The notes beneath the pieces were generated by a model. It saw nothing but the letters and a program-made list of their open reading frames with translations, had not been told where the DNA came from and ran no database searches. From IMG/VR virus record IMGVR_UViG_3300038825_000790, positions 3,071-30,067 of that record: DNA of 26,997 nt; one strand, 5' to 3'. The stretch comes from a virus. Of this stretch, positions 2,126 through 22,302 are shown one piece after another (position 1 is the first letter of the stretch; every line of letters starts with the position of its first letter). A program made the position numbers and the translations under genes.

Positions 2126-2305
2126 ATGAAAAAAGCAATTAAAGGAGTTAATATTACAACTCTAAATAAAAGACAACAAGCCTCTATGGTTAAACACTCA
2201 AAGCATCATACTGCTAAACATTTAAAGTCAATGGTAGCATCTATGAAGAGAGGTAAAACTTTTACTCAATCTCATAAGATAGCTATGAAGAAGGTGGGCA
2301 AGTAG
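2126..2305 (+). CDS. Small basic phage protein, 59 aa
   Basis: ATG follows an AAGGAGAG Shine-Dalgarno by a few bases, right after the stop of the large virion gene. The 59-residue product is rich in Lys, His, Ser and Thr (KKAIKGVNITTLNKRQQAS at the start, KHSKHHTAKH in the middle) and ends in KKVGK. The next start follows its stop after one base. I recall similar short basic proteins beside virion genes in marine phages, but no function is known to me. High positive charge and a late-operon position would suit a DNA-packing or virion-internal peptide; that is inference. Confidence 0.75.
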   Translation: MKKAIKGVNITTLNKRQQASMVKHSKHHTAKHLKSMVASMKRGKTFTQSHKIAMKKVGK

Positions 2306-2306
2306 T

Positions 2307-2597
2307 ATGCCTAAGAAAAAAGATTCAAGATTAAAGAGAGCTGGAGTATCTGGATTTAATAAACCAAAGAGAACTCCTGGTCATCCTAAGAAGAGCCATA
2401 TCGTAGTGGCTAAAGTAGGAGATAAAATTAAAACTATTAGATTCGGGCAGCAAGGAGTTACAACGGCTGGTAAGCCTAAGGCTGGTGAATCTAGAAAACA
2501 GAAAATGAGACGCAAGTCATTTAAAGCTAGACACAGAAAGAATATAGCTAAAGGTAAAATGTCTGCTGCTTATTGGGCAAACAAGGTGAAATGGTAA
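2307..2597 (+). CDS. Small basic conserved phage protein, 96 aa
   Basis: A 96-residue, strongly basic protein. The N-terminal half is Lys/Pro/Gly-rich (PKKKDSRLKRAGVSGFNKPK); the C-terminal third has the pattern KARHRKNIAKGKMSAAYWAN followed by KVKW. I recognise that ending as a conserved block of small phage proteins, catalogued I think under a DUF label (possibly DUF6321; not checked). It starts one base after the preceding stop and its own stop overlaps the next ATG by one base (TAATG), so translation is probably coupled. No enzyme motif is visible. Nucleic-acid binding is plausible from charge only. Confidence 0.8.
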   Translation: MPKKKDSRLKRAGVSGFNKPKRTPGHPKKSHIVVAKVGDKIKTIRFGQQGVTTAGKPKAGESRKQKMRRKSFKARHRKNIAKGKMSAAYWANKVKW

Positions 2598-2734
2598 TGG
2601 CTAAACAAAAAAAAGTAAGCTGGATGTATGGTGGCAAAAAATATAGTGGAACTTTTATTAGAGAAACTAAAAAAGCTATATTTGCTAGAACTACAAATGG
2701 TAAAATTAAAAAAATTATAAAAAAGAAAAAGTGA
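2597..2734 (+). CDS. Tiny polycationic protein, 45 aa
   Basis: The ATG overlaps the previous stop by one base (TAATG) and its TGA is embedded in the next GTG start (GTGA). The product has 16 Lys/Arg and one acidic residue in 45, with a Trp/Tyr-containing first half (VSWMYGGKKYSGTF) and a tail of lysines (KIKKIIKKKK). Codon overlaps on both sides argue that it is real despite its size. Function unknown; the charge suggests a nucleic-acid or virion-interior partner. Confidence 0.7.
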   Translation: MAKQKKVSWMYGGKKYSGTFIRETKKAIFARTTNGKIKKIIKKKK

Positions 2735-3576
2735 ATCCAGAAAACACATTGCTAGGGTTACTTACTGGTGGTAGATACACTCAGTCATCGGACTTGCCAA
2801 CTGCTAAACAAGTTGGAAGTAGTGCAATAGATGTTATTATAGAGGCTGATAATAAAAGAAAAAGTAGAGTTCTTTTTGAGTCTGGTAAAAATATATTTGG
2901 GAAACCAACCGATAAATTTACCCAAGGAGATTTAGATAATTTAGTTATGGGTTTAATATCTCCAAGAGGAGTATTGCCAAAATCTTCTAAAGTTGATGAC
3001 ATTATAGATAAAATTAAAAATGACCCTCATTCTCCTATTTTTTTACCAAGAACATTGCCAGTTAAGGAGCGCGCTGAATTCTATGGAAAAACAATAGGTC
3101 AAGCACAAAGAGGTGATCCAGAAGAGGCAATGGTAAAAGTGCAAAAAGCATTGGGTGGTGGAGTTCTTGGTGGTGCAATAGAACCTATGGGCGACATACT
3201 TAATAGAATGTATTTTTACGCAGGTAGATATCCTGGCAATATGGGAGTTACAAGGGAAAAAATTGATAGAGTTCTGTCTTATTTAAAACACCCTTATGGT
3301 TTTGCAAAGGAACATAAAGAGAACGTTATAAGTAATGCTAGGTTTAGCAAAGTGCCAGTCAAAGAGTACGAGAATAACTTAAATAAAGCTTTAAAGGAAT
3401 ATGGAAAAGCTCATTCTAACCTTCCAGCAAATTACAACGAAGTGCAGGAACTAATAAAGGAAGCTAATGAAGAGTTTGCAGAACAAAATTGGAAAAAAGT
3501 AATAGAGAATCTTGAGACTGTTAAAGGATATATGGATGAAGGAGTAGAGAGCTTTACTAAAAGGATATTAAAGTAG
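2731..3576 (+). CDS. Hypothetical late protein, 281 aa
   Basis: The start is a GTG whose last two bases form the TGA of the previous gene. The alternatives lie far inside, so GTG is preferred. The 281-residue protein has a mixed N-terminal half with Pro/Gly loops (SPRGVLPKSSKVDD; GGGVLGGAIEPMGD) and a C-terminal ~90 residues of charged helices ending QNWKKVIENLETVKGYMDEG, which could form a helical hairpin or coiled coil. No signal peptide or catalytic motif was seen. The late-operon position suggests a virion or assembly role. I do not recognise the family. Confidence 0.75.
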   Translation: MNPENTLLGLLTGGRYTQSSDLPTAKQVGSSAIDVIIEADNKRKSRVLFESGKNIFGKPTDKFTQGDLDNLVMGLISPRGVLPKSSKVDDIIDKIKNDPHSPIFLPRTLPVKERAEFYGKTIGQAQRGDPEEAMVKVQKALGGGVLGGAIEPMGDILNRMYFYAGRYPGNMGVTREKIDRVLSYLKHPYGFAKEHKENVISNARFSKVPVKEYENNLNKALKEYGKAHSNLPANYNEVQELIKEANEEFAEQNWKKVIENLETVKGYMDEGVESFTKRILK

Positions 3577-3689
3577 TGCCTAACAAAAAAGCTAAGAACA
3601 GAAAAAGATTGCGCTTAAAACTAGCGATACAGAATAAGCGTAGAAAAAGAGAATTGAAAAAATTACAAAAGGAAAAGAGCAATGAATGA
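3576..3689 (+). CDS. Tiny polycationic protein, 37 aa
   Basis: A GTG start shares its first base with the preceding TAG, and the stop overlaps the next ATG by 8 bases. The 37-residue product (beginning PNKKAKNRKRLRLKL) has 17 Lys/Arg and only 3 Glu. I recall similar very short 'PNKKAKNRKR' proteins in marine phages. It is the fourth tiny basic gene in this stretch. Function unknown. Confidence 0.7.
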   Translation: MPNKKAKNRKRLRLKLAIQNKRRKRELKKLQKEKSNE

Positions 3690-4170
3690 ACAAGAGTTGT
3701 TTGCATTAATAGACTCACTTACTAAAGGTCAAGGAGAAATGTCTAAGACTCCTATGGGAAGAGAAGTTTTATTTATGACAGACCCCAATATAGGTGTTGG
3801 CGCTCCAGAAAACATTGATATACAAGAGCTTATAAAAGGAATGATTGACCCTAAATCTCCTATACGAAGTCAGTTTTCTAGTGCATTAGGTAGAAACAAA
3901 TTACAGAAAGATGTAGGAGAGTCTAAATCTATAGATGATATTATAAGCGCATCTGATGTAGCTGAGTTTTTATCTAAAGCTATGGCAGATAAAACTAATG
4001 TAGAGTCTAGTGAAATGCCAATGAGAGAGGATATAACTAAGTACTCTTCAGATGATCCACTAGATTTATTATTTAAAATGCAAAGCAATCAAAGAAGAGA
4101 GCCTTCAAATATAGAAGGCTTAATGAAAATATTAGAAGACCTGTCTAAAACTAAACCAAAGACTTCATAA
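3682..4170 (+). CDS. Hypothetical late protein, 162 aa
   Basis: ATG lies 8 bases inside the previous gene and follows an AAAGGAAAAG Shine-Dalgarno. The 162-residue product is acidic-to-neutral and Met/Ser/Pro-rich, without cysteines or membrane segments (for example KGQGEMSKTPMGREVLFMTD, then IDPKSPIRSQFSS). The last helix, NIEGLMKILEDLSKTKPK, is amphipathic. It shares a flavour with the 281-residue gene upstream (both have an 'I-P-K-S/G' patch), but I would not claim homology. It is the last rightward gene before the convergent junction. Confidence 0.7.
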   Translation: MNEQELFALIDSLTKGQGEMSKTPMGREVLFMTDPNIGVGAPENIDIQELIKGMIDPKSPIRSQFSSALGRNKLQKDVGESKSIDDIISASDVAEFLSKAMADKTNVESSEMPMREDITKYSSDDPLDLLFKMQSNQRREPSNIEGLMKILEDLSKTKPKTS

Positions 4171-4237: not shown

Positions 4238-4414
4238 CTAAACTTTTCTCTCTCTTATTGCTTTTTTCTCTCTCTCCCTCCTGAGTTGGGAGGGCTTAGT
4301 GTAAAATCTTCGCTCTTCCAACTCTATTAGAAGTCCAGATTCTCTCACTTTCTTTTTAAATTCTGATAACATCTTACCTATCTCTTTATTTTTCGTCTTC
4401 TTCACTAATATCAT
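4238..4414 (-). CDS. rpsU-like: Phage-encoded ribosomal protein bS21 homologue, 58 aa
   Basis: A 58-residue protein carrying the bS21 signature: an N-terminal VKKTKNKEIGKMLSEFKKK (compare E. coli VIKVRENEPFDVALRRFKR), then RESGLLIELEERRFYTKPS (E. coli EKAGVLAEVRRREFYEKPT), then a basic tail that is shorter than the host version (E. coli 71 residues). Family knowledge: bS21 sits on the 30S platform near the anti-Shine-Dalgarno of 16S rRNA and helps initiation. Phage copies are known, including in SAR11 phages. The ATG at 4414 is 29 bases inside the metallopeptidase gene and has GGAG seven bases upstream. The gene is last in the leftward block, before a terminator. An alternative in-frame ATG at 4372 would remove the conserved first strand, so it is disfavoured. 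Confidence 0.88.
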   Translation of the reverse strand: MILVKKTKNKEIGKMLSEFKKKVRESGLLIELEERRFYTKPSQLRREREKKAIRERKV

Positions 4415-8196: not shown

Positions 8197-8347
8197 TATT
8201 ATAACGCTCCTTATTATTAACTATGAGACCACGTTTTTCTGCGTGTCTCCATATAAATTTAATAAAATCGTCTATATCTTCTTGAAGCGTATCATCACCT
8301 CTTTCTATGTATATAGATTCTACATCATCTACCATTTTAAATTTCAT
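8126..8347 (-). CDS. Small acidic protein, 73 aa
   Basis: The ATG at 8347 follows AGGAG by nine bases and overlaps the methyltransferase stop by four (ATGA). The first ~47 residues look ordinary (DDVESIYIERGDDTLQED; DFIKFIWRHAEKRGLIVNN); the last ~25 (REVDRDRGGDVQLNGMGEGH) are Gly/Asp-rich and lie where a second frame begins. Function unknown. Confidence 0.65.
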   Translation of the reverse strand: MKFKMVDDVESIYIERGDDTLQEDIDDFIKFIWRHAEKRGLIVNNKERYNNESREVDRDRGGDVQLNGMGEGH

Positions 8348-9333
8348 AAATAAATACTCCTAATTACTTCAGAAACTACGTTAGTTGTTACTGCATTTCC
8401 AAGACATTTATACCTTTGAGTATCAGATAATCCTTCAGTCCATCCGTCTGGAAAACCCTGCAGCCTCTCGCATTCTATTGGAGTTAATCTTCTTATCTTT
8501 GAGTTCTGTAATGTATGCTGTTGCATACCAGTATCTAGTGTCTGAGCTACTCCTCTACCTACTCTACCTCTCCTAGTCTTAGAACTAGGCACAGATAGGT
8601 TAATACTATCTCCTTCTTGAGCTATAGCATAGCCTGTCTTAGTAGCTTCCTTAACTTTATATAATCCTGTCTTAGCTCCTATCCCACCACCAACAGACTT
8701 TAACGTAGTCGCTAAACCATCTTGATCGTAGACACGATAAGCTTGAGATTTATTCTCAGTCAATTCTTTTAGTCTACTTTCTTTACTATCTTCTTTAGAG
8801 ATTTGTCCGATAGGAAATACTTTTCCTCTACCTCTTCCTCTAAGATTTCCGACAAGATAGATTCTTTCCCTATTTTGAGGGACTCCGAAGTTCTTACTAT
8901 TGAGTAGTTCCCATTGCACCATATACCCAATGTCGGAGAGAACCCTAAGGATTGTCTGGAAAGTCCTTCCAGAGTCATGAGAAAATAAACCTCGTACATT
9001 TTCGAGTATAAAATGTCTGGGTTTTTTGTGGCTGAGAATCCGTGCGATATCAAAAAATAGAGTACCTCTCGTCTCTCTAAATCCGAGTCTTTTTCCAGCA
9101 ATGCTGAAAGCTTGACAAGGAAATCCTCCAACGAGGAGGTCGAAGTCGGGAAGTTCTCTCTCATTAATCTTTGTTGCGTCTCCATAGTTCTTAACACCTT
9201 TAAAATTCCTTTCATATATTTGTGTTGCGTATTTGTCTATCTCCGAGTAGCCTATAAATTCGGCATTCGGAATAGTATTCTTTATTCCTAACTCAAATCC
9301 TCCTATACCAGAGAACATTGAGAATACTTTCAT
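8344..9333 (-). CDS. DNA cytosine-5 methyltransferase (Dcm/M.HpaII type)
   Basis: 329 residues with the C5-methyltransferase motifs in order: motif I FSMFSGIGGFELG (SAM binding, 4-16), motif IV GGFPCQAFSIAGKRLG with catalytic Cys73, motif VI ENVRG (111-115), motif VIII QNRERIYLVG (153-162), a target-recognition region of about 165-280, motif IX RRLTPIECERLQGFP (281-295) and motif X GNAVTTNVV (312-320). It should transfer a methyl group from SAM to C5 of cytosine in a short site that cannot be read from sequence. No restriction enzyme is adjacent, so it is an orphan, most simply protecting phage DNA from host restriction. The ATG follows AGGAG by eight bases. Confidence 0.96.
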   Translation of the reverse strand: MKVFSMFSGIGGFELGIKNTIPNAEFIGYSEIDKYATQIYERNFKGVKNYGDATKINERELPDFDLLVGGFPCQAFSIAGKRLGFRETRGTLFFDIARILSHKKPRHFILENVRGLFSHDSGRTFQTILRVLSDIGYMVQWELLNSKNFGVPQNRERIYLVGNLRGRGRGKVFPIGQISKEDSKESRLKELTENKSQAYRVYDQDGLATTLKSVGGGIGAKTGLYKVKEATKTGYAIAQEGDSINLSVPSSKTRRGRVGRGVAQTLDTGMQQHTLQNSKIRRLTPIECERLQGFPDGWTEGLSDTQRYKCLGNAVTTNVVSEVIRSIYL

Positions 9334-12391: not shown

Positions 12392-12401
12392 CTATATACT
12401 A
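12381..12401. repeat. Three tandem 7-base units (TATACTA)
   Basis: TATACTA occurs three times in a row, spanning the stop codon of the amidoligase gene. Read leftward, each unit gives TATAGT, a -10-like hexamer (5 of 6), but no -35 lies 17 bases upstream. It may simply be slippage in A/T-rich DNA. Confidence 0.8.
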
Positions 12402-13639
12402 TATTCTAGTACTCTATAATCCTCTGCCTTGCTCTTATTGTAGAACTTAGCCATTCTCTGATCAACATACTCTCTTACATCATCATCTAACTTAAGATAC
12501 TTAAAGAATTCTTCATAAGTAAAGTCTCTGCCTCTGATTAGGTTCTCTATCTCAACAGTCTCAGTCTTATACTTGGATAACTCTATACCTACATCTACTA
12601 TAGCTGTACATATCTTAACCCAATTAAGTATCTTCTCTTGATTGATAGTACCAGAATGGTATCTGAACTCTATAGAACCATTGATTATTCTAGAATGCAT
12701 ATTCATACCACAGTATCTAGAATCGTTGTACTTCTCCATAGATGGGTTCACACCCCAGGAGTTATACCAAGCCTCTATGAATTCCTCATTAGAGCTTATC
12801 TCAAAGATGTCTGACCTAGACATAGGTATTCTTCTACACCACCTACCATTGTCTCTAGAAGGTGGTAACATCTTATAGATTACATCTTGTACAGCCTTAC
12901 CTAGTAAGAGAATGTATTTAAGCTGTCTCCACTCGCAATCTCTAGCGTCTACGTGTACGTGTAAACCGCAGCTTCTATTAACATCAAAGTCTGCGTATTT
13001 AAGGTACTCAGTTAGATTTGCTATACGATTATACAAGTCATCTCCATTAGAAGGAGTTTTCATTACCCACTCTACACCACTACCATTATCTTCTGGACTT
13101 ATACTACCATCGTGTACAGGTCTAAATGTAGAAGGATACTCTCCATCATTATCTTCCCAGAAGTTCCAACCATTTGATACACTCTCTACTTCTAGACCTA
13201 TTAACCTCATAGATTTGATAATGCGATTAGACCTAGCATTTTCTCCCATATTTCTTTGAGAGTAACTATCTAAGTCTACTTCATTATGTTCCTCATAACA
13301 TTGGTCGCAGTAGTATTCTTCATCATAATCTCTCCAATGCAGGTCATCTCTATGACATTCATTCTCACATTGATTACAATTATCATAAGCTTCATAGTAA
13401 CAATCTTCACAGTAACAATCGCCATACTCTGTCATACGAAGGTTATTAGACTCCGACCACATAGAGTGACCACAATCCTGACATTCGTAAACATCCTCTT
13501 GGCAAGAGTCACATAGAAACTCTTGAGTTTCTCCATCTACTGTTATATCTTCTTGGTAACTATCAGTAATCTCTTCACAAGAGGTACACAGCACTTCATC
13601 TGGCTCTACTTCTGTAGAGGGATTATTTTCTGTCGGCAT
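12392..13639 (-). CDS. GS-fold amidoligase with N-terminal zinc ribbons
   Basis: 415 residues in two parts. Residues about 18-115 carry fourteen cysteines, mostly in CxxC pairs (CTSC, CDSC, CQDC, CEDC, CNQC, CDQC), forming several LIM/zinc-ribbon-like units. Residues about 140-400 match the amidoligase_2 family of the glutamine-synthetase/glutamate-cysteine-ligase fold: GLEVES (148-153), HDGSI (176-180), GVEWVMKTP (188-196), CGLHVHVD (224-231), RYCGMNMHS (308-316), IEFRYHSGT (323-331). Family knowledge: these use ATP to join a carboxyl to an amine. The substrate is unknown. GGAGG precedes the ATG. The nearby class II amidotransferase could supply ammonia. Confidence 0.85.
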   Translation of the reverse strand: MPTENNPSTEVEPDEVLCTSCEEITDSYQEDITVDGETQEFLCDSCQEDVYECQDCGHSMWSESNNLRMTEYGDCYCEDCYYEAYDNCNQCENECHRDDLHWRDYDEEYYCDQCYEEHNEVDLDSYSQRNMGENARSNRIIKSMRLIGLEVESVSNGWNFWEDNDGEYPSTFRPVHDGSISPEDNGSGVEWVMKTPSNGDDLYNRIANLTEYLKYADFDVNRSCGLHVHVDARDCEWRQLKYILLLGKAVQDVIYKMLPPSRDNGRWCRRIPMSRSDIFEISSNEEFIEAWYNSWGVNPSMEKYNDSRYCGMNMHSRIINGSIEFRYHSGTINQEKILNWVKICTAIVDVGIELSKYKTETVEIENLIRGRDFTYEEFFKYLKLDDDVREYVDQRMAKFYNKSKAEDYRVLEYSI

Positions 13640-13647
13640 AAACCCTC

Positions 13648-13968
13648 CTAAGCTATTGCGTAGTTAGCAGTTATCATATAGAAAGCCATATAGTTAATCT
13701 CTCTAAGCCAACCTATTCTTTTAAGAGTCTTATATATACTCTCTGGCTCTACTGATTCTACTATTATGCCTTCTTGTTGTTCTATCTGCTTGGCTACATA
13801 GTTAAGATAAGATTCGAATGAATCTGTATCTACAAAAGGGTTATTCTTGGCTTTCTTATAGAGCTTCTTCATTACATATAATTTAGATTTTATACGTATT
13901 GGACTCTCTATACCAACTACCATCGCTGATCGCTTCTTCTTAGAGGAAACAAGTTTGTCTATCATCAT
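13648..13968 (-). CDS. Unknown protein between amidoligase and amidotransferase, 106 aa
   Basis: Start chosen at the ATG at 13968, nine bases after GGGAG; an earlier ATG at 13992 lacks a clear Shine-Dalgarno. The ~106 residues are basic at the N terminus (KLVSSKKKRSAMVVGIES; LYVMKKLYKKAKNNP), then helical (FESYLNYVAKQIEQQEGIIV) with a hydrophobic end, YMAFYMITANYAIA. No known domain. Its place between two partner enzymes, overlapping one and 8 bases from the other, makes it a candidate partner, regulator or acceptor protein; that is inference only. Confidence 0.65.
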   Translation of the reverse strand: MMIDKLVSSKKKRSAMVVGIESPIRIKSKLYVMKKLYKKAKNNPFVDTDSFESYLNYVAKQIEQQEGIIVESVEPESIYKTLKRIGWLREINYMAFYMITANYAIA

Positions 13969-15061
13969 CAGACTTTCTCCCTTCCTCAGCATCTACTATT
14001 CTATGATTATCAAACTCATAGCAGCTATTACATATGTAGTAGCCGTGAGTCTTAATAGGATTGTCAGCCCACTCTCCACAGTATCCACAATCTATTCCAT
14101 CTTCATACTCTCTCTTGGAGATGTTCTTCTTGACAGAATATTCACAGTCTACACATATATACTCTCTAGTATCTGCATTGTAGATAATATCCCACCAATC
14201 TGTATGTTTATTACATACATCACAATCTCTATCTCTAGAGTCTCCTCCGAAACTATTATTATAACTACTAAATTCGTTATAATGTCCTCCGAAGTAATTA
14301 GTCTCTAACATATAGTTAGATGCTATTGTATTTGTATCATATGACTTCTTAGTGAAGTTCATCTTTCTATTAAACTTACTAGTATCTATAGTATATAGAG
14401 TATCATTCTTCAACTCGTATATCTTCATAGATATTTCTGTACCTTTAATAGCTTCTTCTAGAATGTCTTGTTGAGAGGCATAGAGTAATACTCTAGCTTC
14501 TTTCCAATATCCGAAATAACAAGGTCTACCTTTCTCTTTTAGTAGATGTAGTACATCTCTATTGCCTTTATTCCAGGCGAGTGCGTAGTCTCCGTATATT
14601 TCATCTAGACATTCTTGAAGGTTACTATTGGAATCAAATAGAGCAAATACAGCCTGAGAATCTACTTCGTAAACTTCTTTCTTGTTTACAGAGATATCTC
14701 TATGGTTATGTATTATTCCATTATGAGTTCCAATAACAGAGCCAATGTGGAAGGGGTGAGCATTTTCCAGAGTTATCTTTCCGTGGGTCTTCCATCTAGT
14801 ATGTCCCAACACTACGGATGTCTCTGGGGTAAGCTCTTCTATGATCGTATCCCAGTCTCTATGCTTGACAAGATTACTTGACTTTTTAAGAGACTTGAAT
14901 ATCATAGGGTTCTTCCCATTACTGATAAAAGCAAGTCCTGTAGAGTGTTCACCTCTAACTACTGATAGTGCAGTAAGCTTAGTTAGAACTCTCTCCAATT
15001 GCTTTATCTGGTACTCTGATTGTGCGTTTTTCTGTTTGGCTATGCCAAATATTCCACACAT
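13940..15061 (-). CDS. Class II glutamine amidotransferase with C-terminal zinc ribbons
   Basis: 373 residues. The Ntn-hydrolase glutaminase domain fills about 1-230: catalytic Cys2 in MCGIFGIA, RGEHSTGLAF (36-45), LGHTRWKTHG (85-94), AHPFHIGSVIGTHNGIIHN (101-119). These are the class II amidotransferase motifs (as in GlmS, PurF, AsnB) that release ammonia from glutamine. No synthase domain follows; instead a Tyr/Asn-rich linker and two zinc ribbons (CDVC/CVDC at 280-306, CGYC/CNSC at 325-347). The missing synthase is plausibly the GS-fold amidoligase encoded downstream, which also carries zinc ribbons. Cys2 must be exposed by Met removal. The ATG has AGAGGGAAAT upstream. Confidence 0.92.
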   Translation of the reverse strand: MCGIFGIAKQKNAQSEYQIKQLERVLTKLTALSVVRGEHSTGLAFISNGKNPMIFKSLKKSSNLVKHRDWDTIIEELTPETSVVLGHTRWKTHGKITLENAHPFHIGSVIGTHNGIIHNHRDISVNKKEVYEVDSQAVFALFDSNSNLQECLDEIYGDYALAWNKGNRDVLHLLKEKGRPCYFGYWKEARVLLYASQQDILEEAIKGTEISMKIYELKNDTLYTIDTSKFNRKMNFTKKSYDTNTIASNYMLETNYFGGHYNEFSSYNNSFGGDSRDRDCDVCNKHTDWWDIIYNADTREYICVDCEYSVKKNISKREYEDGIDCGYCGEWADNPIKTHGYYICNSCYEFDNHRIVDAEEGRKSDDDRQTCFL

Positions 15062-15105: not shown

Positions 15106-15522
15106 CTATATCCAATAATATTCTAGGTTATCTGGTTCACTCCAACCATACCTTGAATAGAACTCATAGTCCTTTCTAAGTAGGTTGCTTCTATGAGATG
15201 CGTGTAGCTTCTCGTTTCCTAACCACTGCGGCATCTCTACGTTCTCCGAGACTCCTACCATTTCCATAGTATTGTTATAGCCTCTGAGAATCCATTCCTC
15301 TATCATTTTGTTCTTGTAGAGGAGCAGAGCCTCTTCGTAGCCTCGCCACATAGTTACAGCAGGGTGATTTAGCCACCCTCTATAGCTTCTACCTGTCTTT
15401 GTAGGTATTCCAGATAGAGCGTTAAATATTTGTAGAGCTTCTACTCTTTGCTTACCTAAACGTCTATAGTCTAGGGATTGTGCAGAGAGAGTGAAGTCTC
15501 TATATGGTAGGAATGTCTGCAT
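15106..15522 (-). CDS. Pyrimidine-dimer-DNA-glycosylase-like protein (MSMEG_6728/DenV-type)
   Basis: 138 residues, the length of T4 DenV. Segments I recognise from the Pyr_excise/MSMEG_6728 family: QTFLPYRDFTLSAQSLDYRR, LGKQRVEALQIFNAL, GWLNHPAVTMWRGYEEALLL, then HASHRSNLLRKDYEFYSRYG. Family knowledge: DenV cuts pyrimidine dimers with a glycosylase and AP-lyase step using an N-terminal Thr amine and a catalytic Glu. Here the order differs (start MQTF) and I cannot assign the catalytic residues, so activity is uncertain. UV repair would suit a phage of sunlit water. It overlaps the 67-residue gene upstream by 23 bases. Confidence 0.75.
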   Translation of the reverse strand: MQTFLPYRDFTLSAQSLDYRRLGKQRVEALQIFNALSGIPTKTGRSYRGWLNHPAVTMWRGYEEALLLYKNKMIEEWILRGYNNTMEMVGVSENVEMPQWLGNEKLHASHRSNLLRKDYEFYSRYGWSEPDNLEYYWI

Positions 15523-19226: not shown

Positions 19227-19438
19227 TGAAAAAGATAAGTCCGAAGAAGATAAAGTTTTTAGAAAAGATTATAGATGATGTAATTAAAAAGCCTAGTCCA
19301 TCTAGAGCATCAGCTACGTACTATACGTCGCCTGCCTGGGGCTGGGGGAGGGAGTCAAATGAGAGAAAAAGAAGTAATACAAGCGATAGAGAAGACATAT
19401 CCAGAAATGATGAAGAGGTTCAATCAGATAACGAATGA
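19226..19438 (+). CDS. Small basic protein, 70 aa
   Basis: The start overlaps the previous stop (TAATG). The first half (KKISPKKIKFLEKIIDDVIK, then KPSPSRASATYYTSPAWGWG) looks coded; the last ~26 residues are Ser/Asp/Glu/Asn-rich and overlap the next gene by 80 bases. Confidence is lowered by that overlap. Confidence 0.5.
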   Translation: MKKISPKKIKFLEKIIDDVIKKPSPSRASATYYTSPAWGWGRESNERKRSNTSDREDISRNDEEVQSDNE

Positions 19439-19709
19439 ACAATATCAGCTATTCTGTAGAAAGCAGTATGACTATGGCAGCGGTAACATAACACTTGGTG
19501 GCGATCTTGATAAAGAAGATGATAGAATGATGTCATTGATTGCTTTGGTTATTAGAATGAACGATAAAGTAAGTCGTTTAAAAAACATTATTATTAAACA
19601 TAGAGGAAAGAATGCTGTTGCTGATGAAACATATCTAGATGCATTCAAAGATTTATCTATCTATGGTGTGATAGCTCAACTAGTATCTGAAAAAGTCTGG
19701 GGTAAATAA
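19359..19709 (+). CDS. Nmad1/DUF1599-like protein (nucleotide-modification associated)
   Basis: 116 residues. Pattern: FCRKQYDYGSGNITLGGD (the K-x2-DYG-x2-N core), LIALVIRMNDKVSRLKNIII (R-x3-DK-x2-RL) and DETYLDAFKDLSIYGVIAQL (DE-x4-D-x3-DL-x2-Y). This matches the DUF1599 family, called nucleotide-modification-associated domain 1 and predicted to be an all-helical NTP pyrophosphohydrolase-type fold. The role in this phage, perhaps acting on a nucleotide pool or a modified base, is inferred from the family. The ATG has a strong GGGAGGGAG Shine-Dalgarno. The stop overlaps the next ATG. Confidence 0.75.
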   Translation: MREKEVIQAIEKTYPEMMKRFNQITNEQYQLFCRKQYDYGSGNITLGGDLDKEDDRMMSLIALVIRMNDKVSRLKNIIIKHRGKNAVADETYLDAFKDLSIYGVIAQLVSEKVWGK

Positions 19710-21716: not shown

Positions 21717-21955
21717 TGAAAAAAGTTAGTTTTGAGTTTGAATTAGAGGTGCATGATAAATTAAGAGATGAAGATTTAAAAGAATGCATATCAAATTACT
21801 TAATAAATGAAGAATCTTTTGGCGCGCTTGTGATGAAAGTTATTGGAGAGCCAGGAAGCTCTCAGTATTTTGATATAAACTTTAGAAAGTTTGATTTAAA
21901 ACCAAAAGAAAAACCTAAGCCTAAGTCTAAAGCAAAAACAAAAACAAAAAAATGA
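21716..21955 (+). CDS. Small protein with Lys/Pro tail, 79 aa
   Basis: The first ~62 residues look like a small alpha/beta domain (KKVSFEFELEVHDKLRDEDL; SSQYFDINFRKFDL); the tail is low-complexity Lys/Pro/Thr (KPKEKPKPKSKAKTKTKK). It starts in TAATG and ends in ATGA, so it is coupled on both sides. Function unknown. Confidence 0.7.
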   Translation: MKKVSFEFELEVHDKLRDEDLKECISNYLINEESFGALVMKVIGEPGSSQYFDINFRKFDLKPKEKPKPKSKAKTKTKK

Positions 21956-22302
21956 AGTTAGCTGTATACGGAACATTAAGAAGTGGTAATAAGAATACAG
22001 GTATACTAGAAAATTCTTCACTTGTATATCCAGGTCATCATACTTTTCCAGCTGTTATACAAAACAAAAATGGTTCTGGAACTGTAGTAGAAGTCCATGA
22101 TGTCACTGAAGAAGATTTAGCTAGATATGATATGTATGAAGGAATTGATTCTGGATTATATAGAAGAGTTAAGACTGATGTTAAAATGGATAGTGGAGAT
22201 ACAGAAAATGTTTGGGTGTATGTAGCTGGCGATGAGTTAATGCAAAGAAGTAATTCTTTTAAAGTTATTAAAAGCGGAGATTGGTACAATAGAAAAGTTT
22301 AA
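21952..22302 (+). CDS. Gamma-glutamylcyclotransferase-like protein (AIG2/GGCT fold)
   Basis: 116 residues with the family's opening KLAVYGTLRSGNKNT (YGTLR-x-G), the central LARYDMYEGIDSGLYRR and the final strand ENVWVYVAGDE. GGCT-fold enzymes turn gamma-glutamyl amines into 5-oxoproline plus free amine. The catalytic Glu is probably in DMYEG or just before, but I cannot fix it by eye, and many relatives are uncharacterised. It sits inside the packaging operon and its end overlaps the open frame leading to TerL. A link to the amidoligase system on the other strand is possible. Confidence 0.78.
   Translation: MKLAVYGTLRSGNKNTGILENSSLVYPGHHTFPAVIQNKNGSGTVVEVHDVTEEDLARYDMYEGIDSGLYRRVKTDVKMDSGDTENVWVYVAGDELMQRSNSFKVIKSGDWYNRKV

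Follow-up and report, generated by a model that had tools for sequence, protein, structure and literature searches.

A reduced, zinc-ribbon-bearing glutamine amidotransferase and amidoligase gene set in a tailed phage, with candidate gamma-glutamyl chemistry

The stretch of viral DNA analysed here, referred to as the window, comprises 27.0 kb (26,997 nucleotides, positions 3,071 to 30,067) of the 30,067-base virus record IMGVR_UViG_3300038825_000790, from a tailed phage whose portal is P22-like. It encodes a class II glutamine amidotransferase (GAT), a small orphan protein and an amidoligase in succession, and a gamma-glutamyl cyclotransferase further along. The locus very probably belongs to the GAT-II/amidoligase/gamma-glutamyl cyclotransferase cassette known from other phages. 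That type of gene set has already been described; the lineage of the window is marked by its reduced composition, the zinc ribbons on both enzymes and the orphan between them. Our overall reading, to which we give a probability of about 0.5, is that of a reduced, zinc-ribbon-bearing cassette that would make and trim gamma-glutamyl or amide linkages.

Enzymes of the gene set

The amidoligase scores 75.5 bits with the Amidoligase_2 profile (PF12224; curated cut-off 22) and carries the ExE, DGS, HxHxD and ExR motifs of this family, with the catalytic residues E150/E152, D177, E190, H227/H229, R262, E324 and R326 intact and invariant. Its structural model (predicted local distance difference test score 74) matches YbdK (glutamate-cysteine ligase 2) with Z scores of 12.4-12.7 and a root-mean-square deviation of 3.9 over 224-230 residues, followed by plant glutamate-cysteine ligase (GCL; Z 12.1) and by glutamine synthetases (GS) and gamma-glutamylmethylamide synthetase (GmaS; Z about 11), while Dop and PafA match more weakly than YbdK and GCL. 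GCL, GS and GmaS activate the gamma-carboxylate of glutamate. The window protein shares the GS fold and the gamma-glutamyl ligase architecture with these enzymes, but sequence identity is about 12% and the zinc ribbons are not theirs. Profile and fold matches both uphold the assignment as a GS-fold amidoligase, which had been made from the letters of the DNA in an earlier reading of this locus (the original prediction).

The GAT passes the cut-off of GATase_6 (PF13522, E 7e-12), and its profile matches the glutaminase of GlmS (1xff, E 1.4e-11). No synthase domain is found by Pfam, and the NCBIfam ranking returns the glutaminase half of GlmS only. Like the GlmS glutaminase domain, the protein is an N-terminal nucleophile (Ntn) glutaminase with the features of class II amidotransferases, namely a Cys after the initiator Met (Cys2), the Gln-binding Arg89, the Asn114-Gly115 oxyanion hole and Asp134, all intact and invariant in relatives; unlike GlmS, it has a linker and two zinc ribbons in place of the synthase half. 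The protein is accordingly the stand-alone Cys2 glutaminase, lacking a synthase, that had been proposed.

The same prediction presented the GAT and the amidoligase as a pair. The pair is conserved, but it is not isolated: it is part of a cassette that had already been described, and a third component, the gamma-glutamyl cyclotransferase, had been overlooked. This gene adjoins the large terminase gene in the packaging region, on the strand opposite to the trio. It lies within the flank in 45 of the 52 trio loci that have 8 kb of upstream sequence, and elsewhere in the record for six of the other seven (L049 and L050 are near-identical, and the L049 record alone was searched). GAT-II, Amidoligase_2 and gamma-glutamyl cyclotransferase, the co-occurrence of which was used to recognize the cassette, are thus found together.

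Conservation of the gene set

Loci were retrieved by similarity to the window family, and the counts given here therefore describe this family and not the frequency of pairing among all phage amidoligases. When viral contigs were scanned with the amidoligase alignment, 77 loci were returned. By hidden Markov model (HMM) annotation, 67 loci hold the trio in the sequence GAT, orphan, amidoligase; where one member of the trio is missing, a contig edge or a mis-called start codon is the cause. Because several of the loci are on near-identical contigs, clusters were counted as well: the amidoligases from 69 loci form 54 clusters at 95% identity and 34 at 70%. A scan from the GAT side, which reaches distant lineages at 24-32% identity, gave 47 loci; in 44 an amidoligase lies no further than 1.5 kb away, and contig ends cut the remaining three. 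Separation of the two genes and loss of active-site residues in relatives had both been raised as tests of the proposed pairing; the genes stay together, and the catalytic motifs are kept throughout, with HNG in 70/70 GATs and DGS and HxHxD each in 69/69 amidoligases. ExR is present in 68/69 amidoligases, and 67 of the 70 GATs start with MC, the remaining three with MSMC.

In 49 of the 67 trio loci, the gene next upstream of the GAT encodes a second zinc-ribbon amidoligase, usually a longer one (about 450-680 residues, mostly 560-640), for example at 6347-8053 in L004, 6492-8369 in L049 and 6850-8670 in L069; in most cases it has a long N-terminal extension that finds no match in Pfam. The window represents the form without this second enzyme. 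Loci with it cluster together on the GAT tree (support 86/85), and it has therefore been gained or lost only a few times.

Ribbons on both enzymes also occur in two other lineages, at loci with reversed gene order and no orphan (L132, 8215-11266; L138, 8180-11242; L149, 10001-12272). L132 and L138 are distant phages, and L149 and L150, the latter likewise with ribbons on both enzymes and no orphan, are contigs binned as Omnitrophica.

In genomes of Bacteroidales type (L154-L156, L160, L162, L172, L174, L175, L177, L179, L182, L185 and L187), a ribbon-free amidoligase is followed at once by a short GAT-like open reading frame (ORF) of 172-187 residues; this may be a relative of the pair that resides in a chromosome or a prophage. 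An 80,282-base record (IMGVR_UViG_3300030708_000851, loci L018-L021) holds two related phage genomes in succession, with two portals, two terminases and two GAT-orphan-amidoligase sets at different identities; it is an assembly chimera or else an unusual concatemer.

Zinc ribbons and the orphan protein

Both enzymes carry several zinc ribbons, as had been predicted. The N-terminal part of the amidoligase holds 12 invariant Cys in six CxxC pairs (residues 18-114), which make three ribbons, and the C-terminal part of the GAT holds eight in four pairs (residues 280, 283, 303, 306, 325, 328, 344 and 347), which make two. The spacing is C-x2-C-x17-C-x2-C with seven-residue linkers. Among relatives, all 69 amidoligases downstream of the orphan have at least four CxxC, and 69 of 70 GATs have at least two, always beyond the first 230 residues, the exception being a truncated ORF. 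Since only 16 of 154 other long ORFs of the same loci have at least two CxxC, conservation of the ribbons exceeds chance.

When the ribbon profiles of the amidoligase and the GAT were compared, the score was 41.9 (probability 93%), above the values of at most 16.9 obtained in 60 shuffles with the cysteine columns fixed and the 14 obtained against an exonuclease ribbon of the same phages; the two sets of ribbons are therefore likely to be related beyond their cysteine spacing. The description of the ribbons as matching holds in this respect, but not in the sense of a feature exclusive to the pair. Uniqueness was rejected, since an unrelated phage protein, encoded in L005, has a ribbon region that outscores the GAT ribbons in comparison with those of the amidoligase (74 versus 42). 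This protein (2295-3746, plus strand, 483 residues) ends in a tandem ribbon block with 38% identity to residues 42-117 of the amidoligase (E 2e-6). The amidoligase ribbons give no more than weak profile and fold matches to LIM domains, and among the fold neighbours in BFVD is a protein from an uncultured phage that is labelled 'LIM domain containing protein'. By these matches, the module appears to be mobile and LIM-like. The mean charge of the ribbons is -19 in the amidoligase and -8 in the GAT, and such acidity would favour protein partners over nucleic acid.

The one unknown gene noted between the two enzymes indeed encodes an orphan of 114 residues, for which no match was found in Pfam, PHROG, PADLOC, NCBIfam or PDB. 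Its model is helical and of low confidence, and no fold in the PDB matches it with an E value under 2.8. The protein is Lys-rich and basic on average, and 47-96% identical in relatives. Scanning with the orphan retrieved 42 loci; an orphan HMM match is present in 41, and in every one of these the GAT and the amidoligase stand on either side; the orphan is exclusive to the GAT-amidoligase pair wherever flanks exist. Two candidate roles for the orphan were rejected. As a Pup-like tag it should end in Glu or Gln, but the C-terminal residue is A, S, V, T or G in 71 relatives; as a tail-anchored membrane protein it does show raised C-terminal hydrophobicity, yet a value of 1.6 over 19 residues is reached in only 6 of 71 relatives.

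Comparison with described phage cassettes

Prediction of the cassette is credited to Iyer et al. 2009 in PMC5498523, PMC10580990 and PMC11945000. In RIO-1-like Pseudoalteromonas phages, the term 'peptidoglycan modification cassette' denotes amidoligases, an ATP-grasp enzyme, gamma-glutamyl cyclotransferase and glutamine amidotransferase, and the set is called conserved in phiEco32, LUZ24, PaP3, tf, PA11 and CW02 (PMC5498523). It is also annotated in LUZ24-like phages (PMC3890496; PMC11945000), as an amidoligase with a GATase in OM43 phages (PMC10580990), and as an amidoligase with a cyclotransferase in Arthrobacter phages (PMC5513430). The published proposals for its role are superinfection exclusion and weakening of the wall ahead of lysis. 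The full cassette, to which an ATP-grasp enzyme and a second, COOH-NH2 ligase usually belong, is present in the records of MW202615, EK010, tf, Vibrio 1.293.O and KZY1; the stretch read of CVT22 has all of it except an annotated cyclotransferase.

The window resembles these phiEco32-, LUZ24/PaP3/tf- and RIO-1/PSA-HP1-like phages in having GAT-II, Amidoligase_2 and cyclotransferase in one genome, with the amidoligase beside or near the glutaminase. It differs from them in its three amidoligase ribbons, in the orphan between the enzymes, in the position of the cyclotransferase on the other strand in the packaging region, and in the ligases that accompany the set. Profile searches in 22 records of the window lineage and two related ones, which may be fragments although they include some over 40 kb and the 80-kb record with two related genomes, found neither an ATP-grasp enzyme (0/22) nor a phiEco32-type COOH-NH2 ligase (0/22), while all four positive controls were recovered in each case (4/4); a search with PF13535 for ATP-grasp enzymes was likewise negative in 20 records (0/20). 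A parallel in composition is found in the Laroyevirus Arthrobacter phages Waltz and Salgado, which have a minimal triad of cyclotransferase, amidoligase and GAT only, with no annotated ATP-grasp. Unlike the window, they have the three genes in one run and no orphan, and Waltz has no CxxC ribbons.

Hundreds of sequenced phages have annotated genes for related GATs and amidoligases. What the lineage of the window keeps of the cassette is a small core of strict conservation, with zinc ribbons as putative docking domains and a partner protein exclusive to it.

Proposed mechanism and alternatives

By analogy with the fold neighbours, the chemistry of the set would, with slightly better than even odds, be gamma-glutamyl or amide ligation, because the neighbours of the ligase fold, the glutaminase and the cyclotransferase all centre on gamma-glutamyl chemistry. 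In such a scheme, the glutaminase would split host glutamine; the amidoligase would spend ATP on activating a carboxylate, which on the model of YbdK, GCL and GmaS would be the gamma-carboxylate of glutamate, and would form a bond between this group and an amine or ammonia at an acceptor; and the cyclotransferase would take off gamma-glutamyl groups as 5-oxoproline. With a ligase and a cyclotransferase, the set could therefore both write and erase bonds of the gamma-glutamyl type. Direct cooperation of glutaminase and amidoligase, in which the former might pass ammonia or glutamate to the latter, is an even bet, and the acidic zinc ribbons and the orphan may bind the enzymes to each other or bring them to a common target. 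The target is the least certain step: for related cassettes a cell-wall precursor has been proposed, such that the host surface would be altered during infection, and we offer the cell wall as a tentative choice only.

Several points weigh against this scheme. The substrate of the set is not evident from the sequence, and, as the original prediction had supposed for the phage pair, the literature found holds predictions of cassette function and no experimental test. Since neither an ATP-grasp enzyme nor the second ligase was found in the records searched, the set cannot form every one of the three linkages that have been proposed for peptidoglycan. In Bacillus phage 031MP004, an amidoligase and a cyclotransferase occur and no glutaminase was found in their vicinity; a glutaminase is therefore not always needed. 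In tf, CVT22, KZY1 and EK010, CxxC pairs occur on the glutaminase only. Finally, with ribbons of the same kind on the unrelated L005 protein and a phage protein of LIM label among the BFVD neighbours, a shared module alone is no proof of a common target.

Among the alternatives, ligation directed at a protein is unlikely. The amidoligase, acting like PafA, would put glutamate or a peptide on a host or phage protein, with the Lys-rich orphan as acceptor, tag or adaptor and the ribbons as protein docking sites. PafA and Dop of the Pup system are, like the window amidoligase, GS-fold amidoligase/deamidase enzymes; the ribbons are strongly acidic and the orphan is basic on average, and the orphan is tied to the pair and conserved as much as the enzymes or more. 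Against this stand the weaker fold match to PafA and Dop than to YbdK and GCL, the absence of a conserved Glu/Gln tag end at the orphan C-terminus and the absence of the orphan from distant cassettes.

It is similarly doubtful that the set serves small-molecule metabolism, in which it would make or recycle a gamma-glutamyl metabolite (a thiol, polyamine or amino-acid derivative) or move nitrogen, with no macromolecular target. The best fold matches of the amidoligase do make small gamma-glutamyl compounds, and in a planctomycete phage that encodes an amidoligase, a GAT, a glutathione synthase and a gamma-glutamyl cyclotransferase, a role in auxiliary metabolism has been argued (PMC10945688). 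However, small-molecule enzymes would not usually bear conserved domains of several ribbons, as every ligase and glutaminase does here, and no glutathione-synthase-like ATP-grasp was found in the records searched.

That the two enzymes act apart, the glutaminase as a deamidase or gamma-glutamyl hydrolase and the ribbons merely as stabilizers of the proteins, is quite unlikely. The gene content of Bacillus phage 031MP004 and the wide spread of the ribbon module are consistent with separate action, but the near-absolute adjacency of the genes, with the orphan in between, and the retention of the Gln-binding Arg, Asn-Gly and Asp in the GAT argue against it. A bolder version of joint action, in which GAT, orphan and zinc-ribbon amidoligase(s) would form a complex that marks a specific protein by way of glutamine-derived ammonia or glutamate, with the orphan as adaptor or acceptor and the cyclotransferase reversing the mark, would amount to a reversible gamma-glutamyl tagging machine and is distinctly improbable.

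Hypermodification of DNA bases, with the amidoligase adding an amino acid to a modified base, is very improbable and was rejected: a cytosine methyltransferase lies near by and there is a weak, sub-threshold match to DUF1599 (a nucleotide-modification-associated domain) at 19359-19709, but the Pfam matches of the window and of the 80-kb relative include no base-hydroxymethylating, kinase or queuosine-type pathway genes, and the ribbons are acidic. A defence system was also considered and rejected, PADLOC giving no match except a partial one to the gamma-glutamyl cyclotransferase (E 0.0016).

Gene layout and neighbouring genes

The orphan ORF overlaps the GAT stop codon, and an AGGAGG motif that itself overlaps the orphan stop precedes the amidoligase ATG, as read directly from the DNA; translational coupling of GAT, orphan and amidoligase is therefore likely. 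The conserved start of the orphan is probably the ATG at 13968. A promoter scan gave no excess over shuffles.

Table 1. Coordinates of the gene set and of neighbouring genes in the window
Feature	Position	Strand	Remarks
Amidoligase (Amidoligase_2, GS-fold)	12392-13639	minus	415 aa; PF12224 E 7.7e-21
Amidoligase, three C4 zinc ribbons (aa 16-117)	13289-13594	minus	12 invariant Cys
Amidoligase, catalytic GS-fold core (aa 143-406)	12422-13213	minus	range aligned to YbdK/GCL/GS structures
Orphan	13648-13992	minus	114 aa; between glutaminase and amidoligase
Class II glutamine amidotransferase (GAT)	13940-15061	minus	373 aa; Ntn glutaminase domain aa 1-230 and C-terminal tail
GAT, two C4 zinc ribbons (aa 278-349)	14015-14230	minus	8 invariant Cys
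Gamma-glutamyl cyclotransferase (GGACT/AIG2-like)	21952-22302	plus	PF06094 E 2.1e-15
Pyrimidine-dimer DNA glycosylase	15106-15522	minus	PF03013
C5-cytosine methyltransferase	8344-9333	minus	PF00145 E 1.8e-87
Ribosomal protein bS21 homologue	4238-4414	minus	58 aa; PF01165 E 1.7e-8

Directly upstream of the GAT lies the gene for a pyrimidine-dimer DNA glycosylase, 79-93% identical among relatives; where a second amidoligase is present, it stands between this gene and the GAT. The C5-cytosine methyltransferase is encoded within the same leftward gene block and likely acts against host restriction. Close relatives of the window phage have capsid and adaptor proteins of SU10 type. The phage also encodes a homologue of ribosomal protein bS21, 98% identical in two close relatives and possibly a factor for the take-over of translation.

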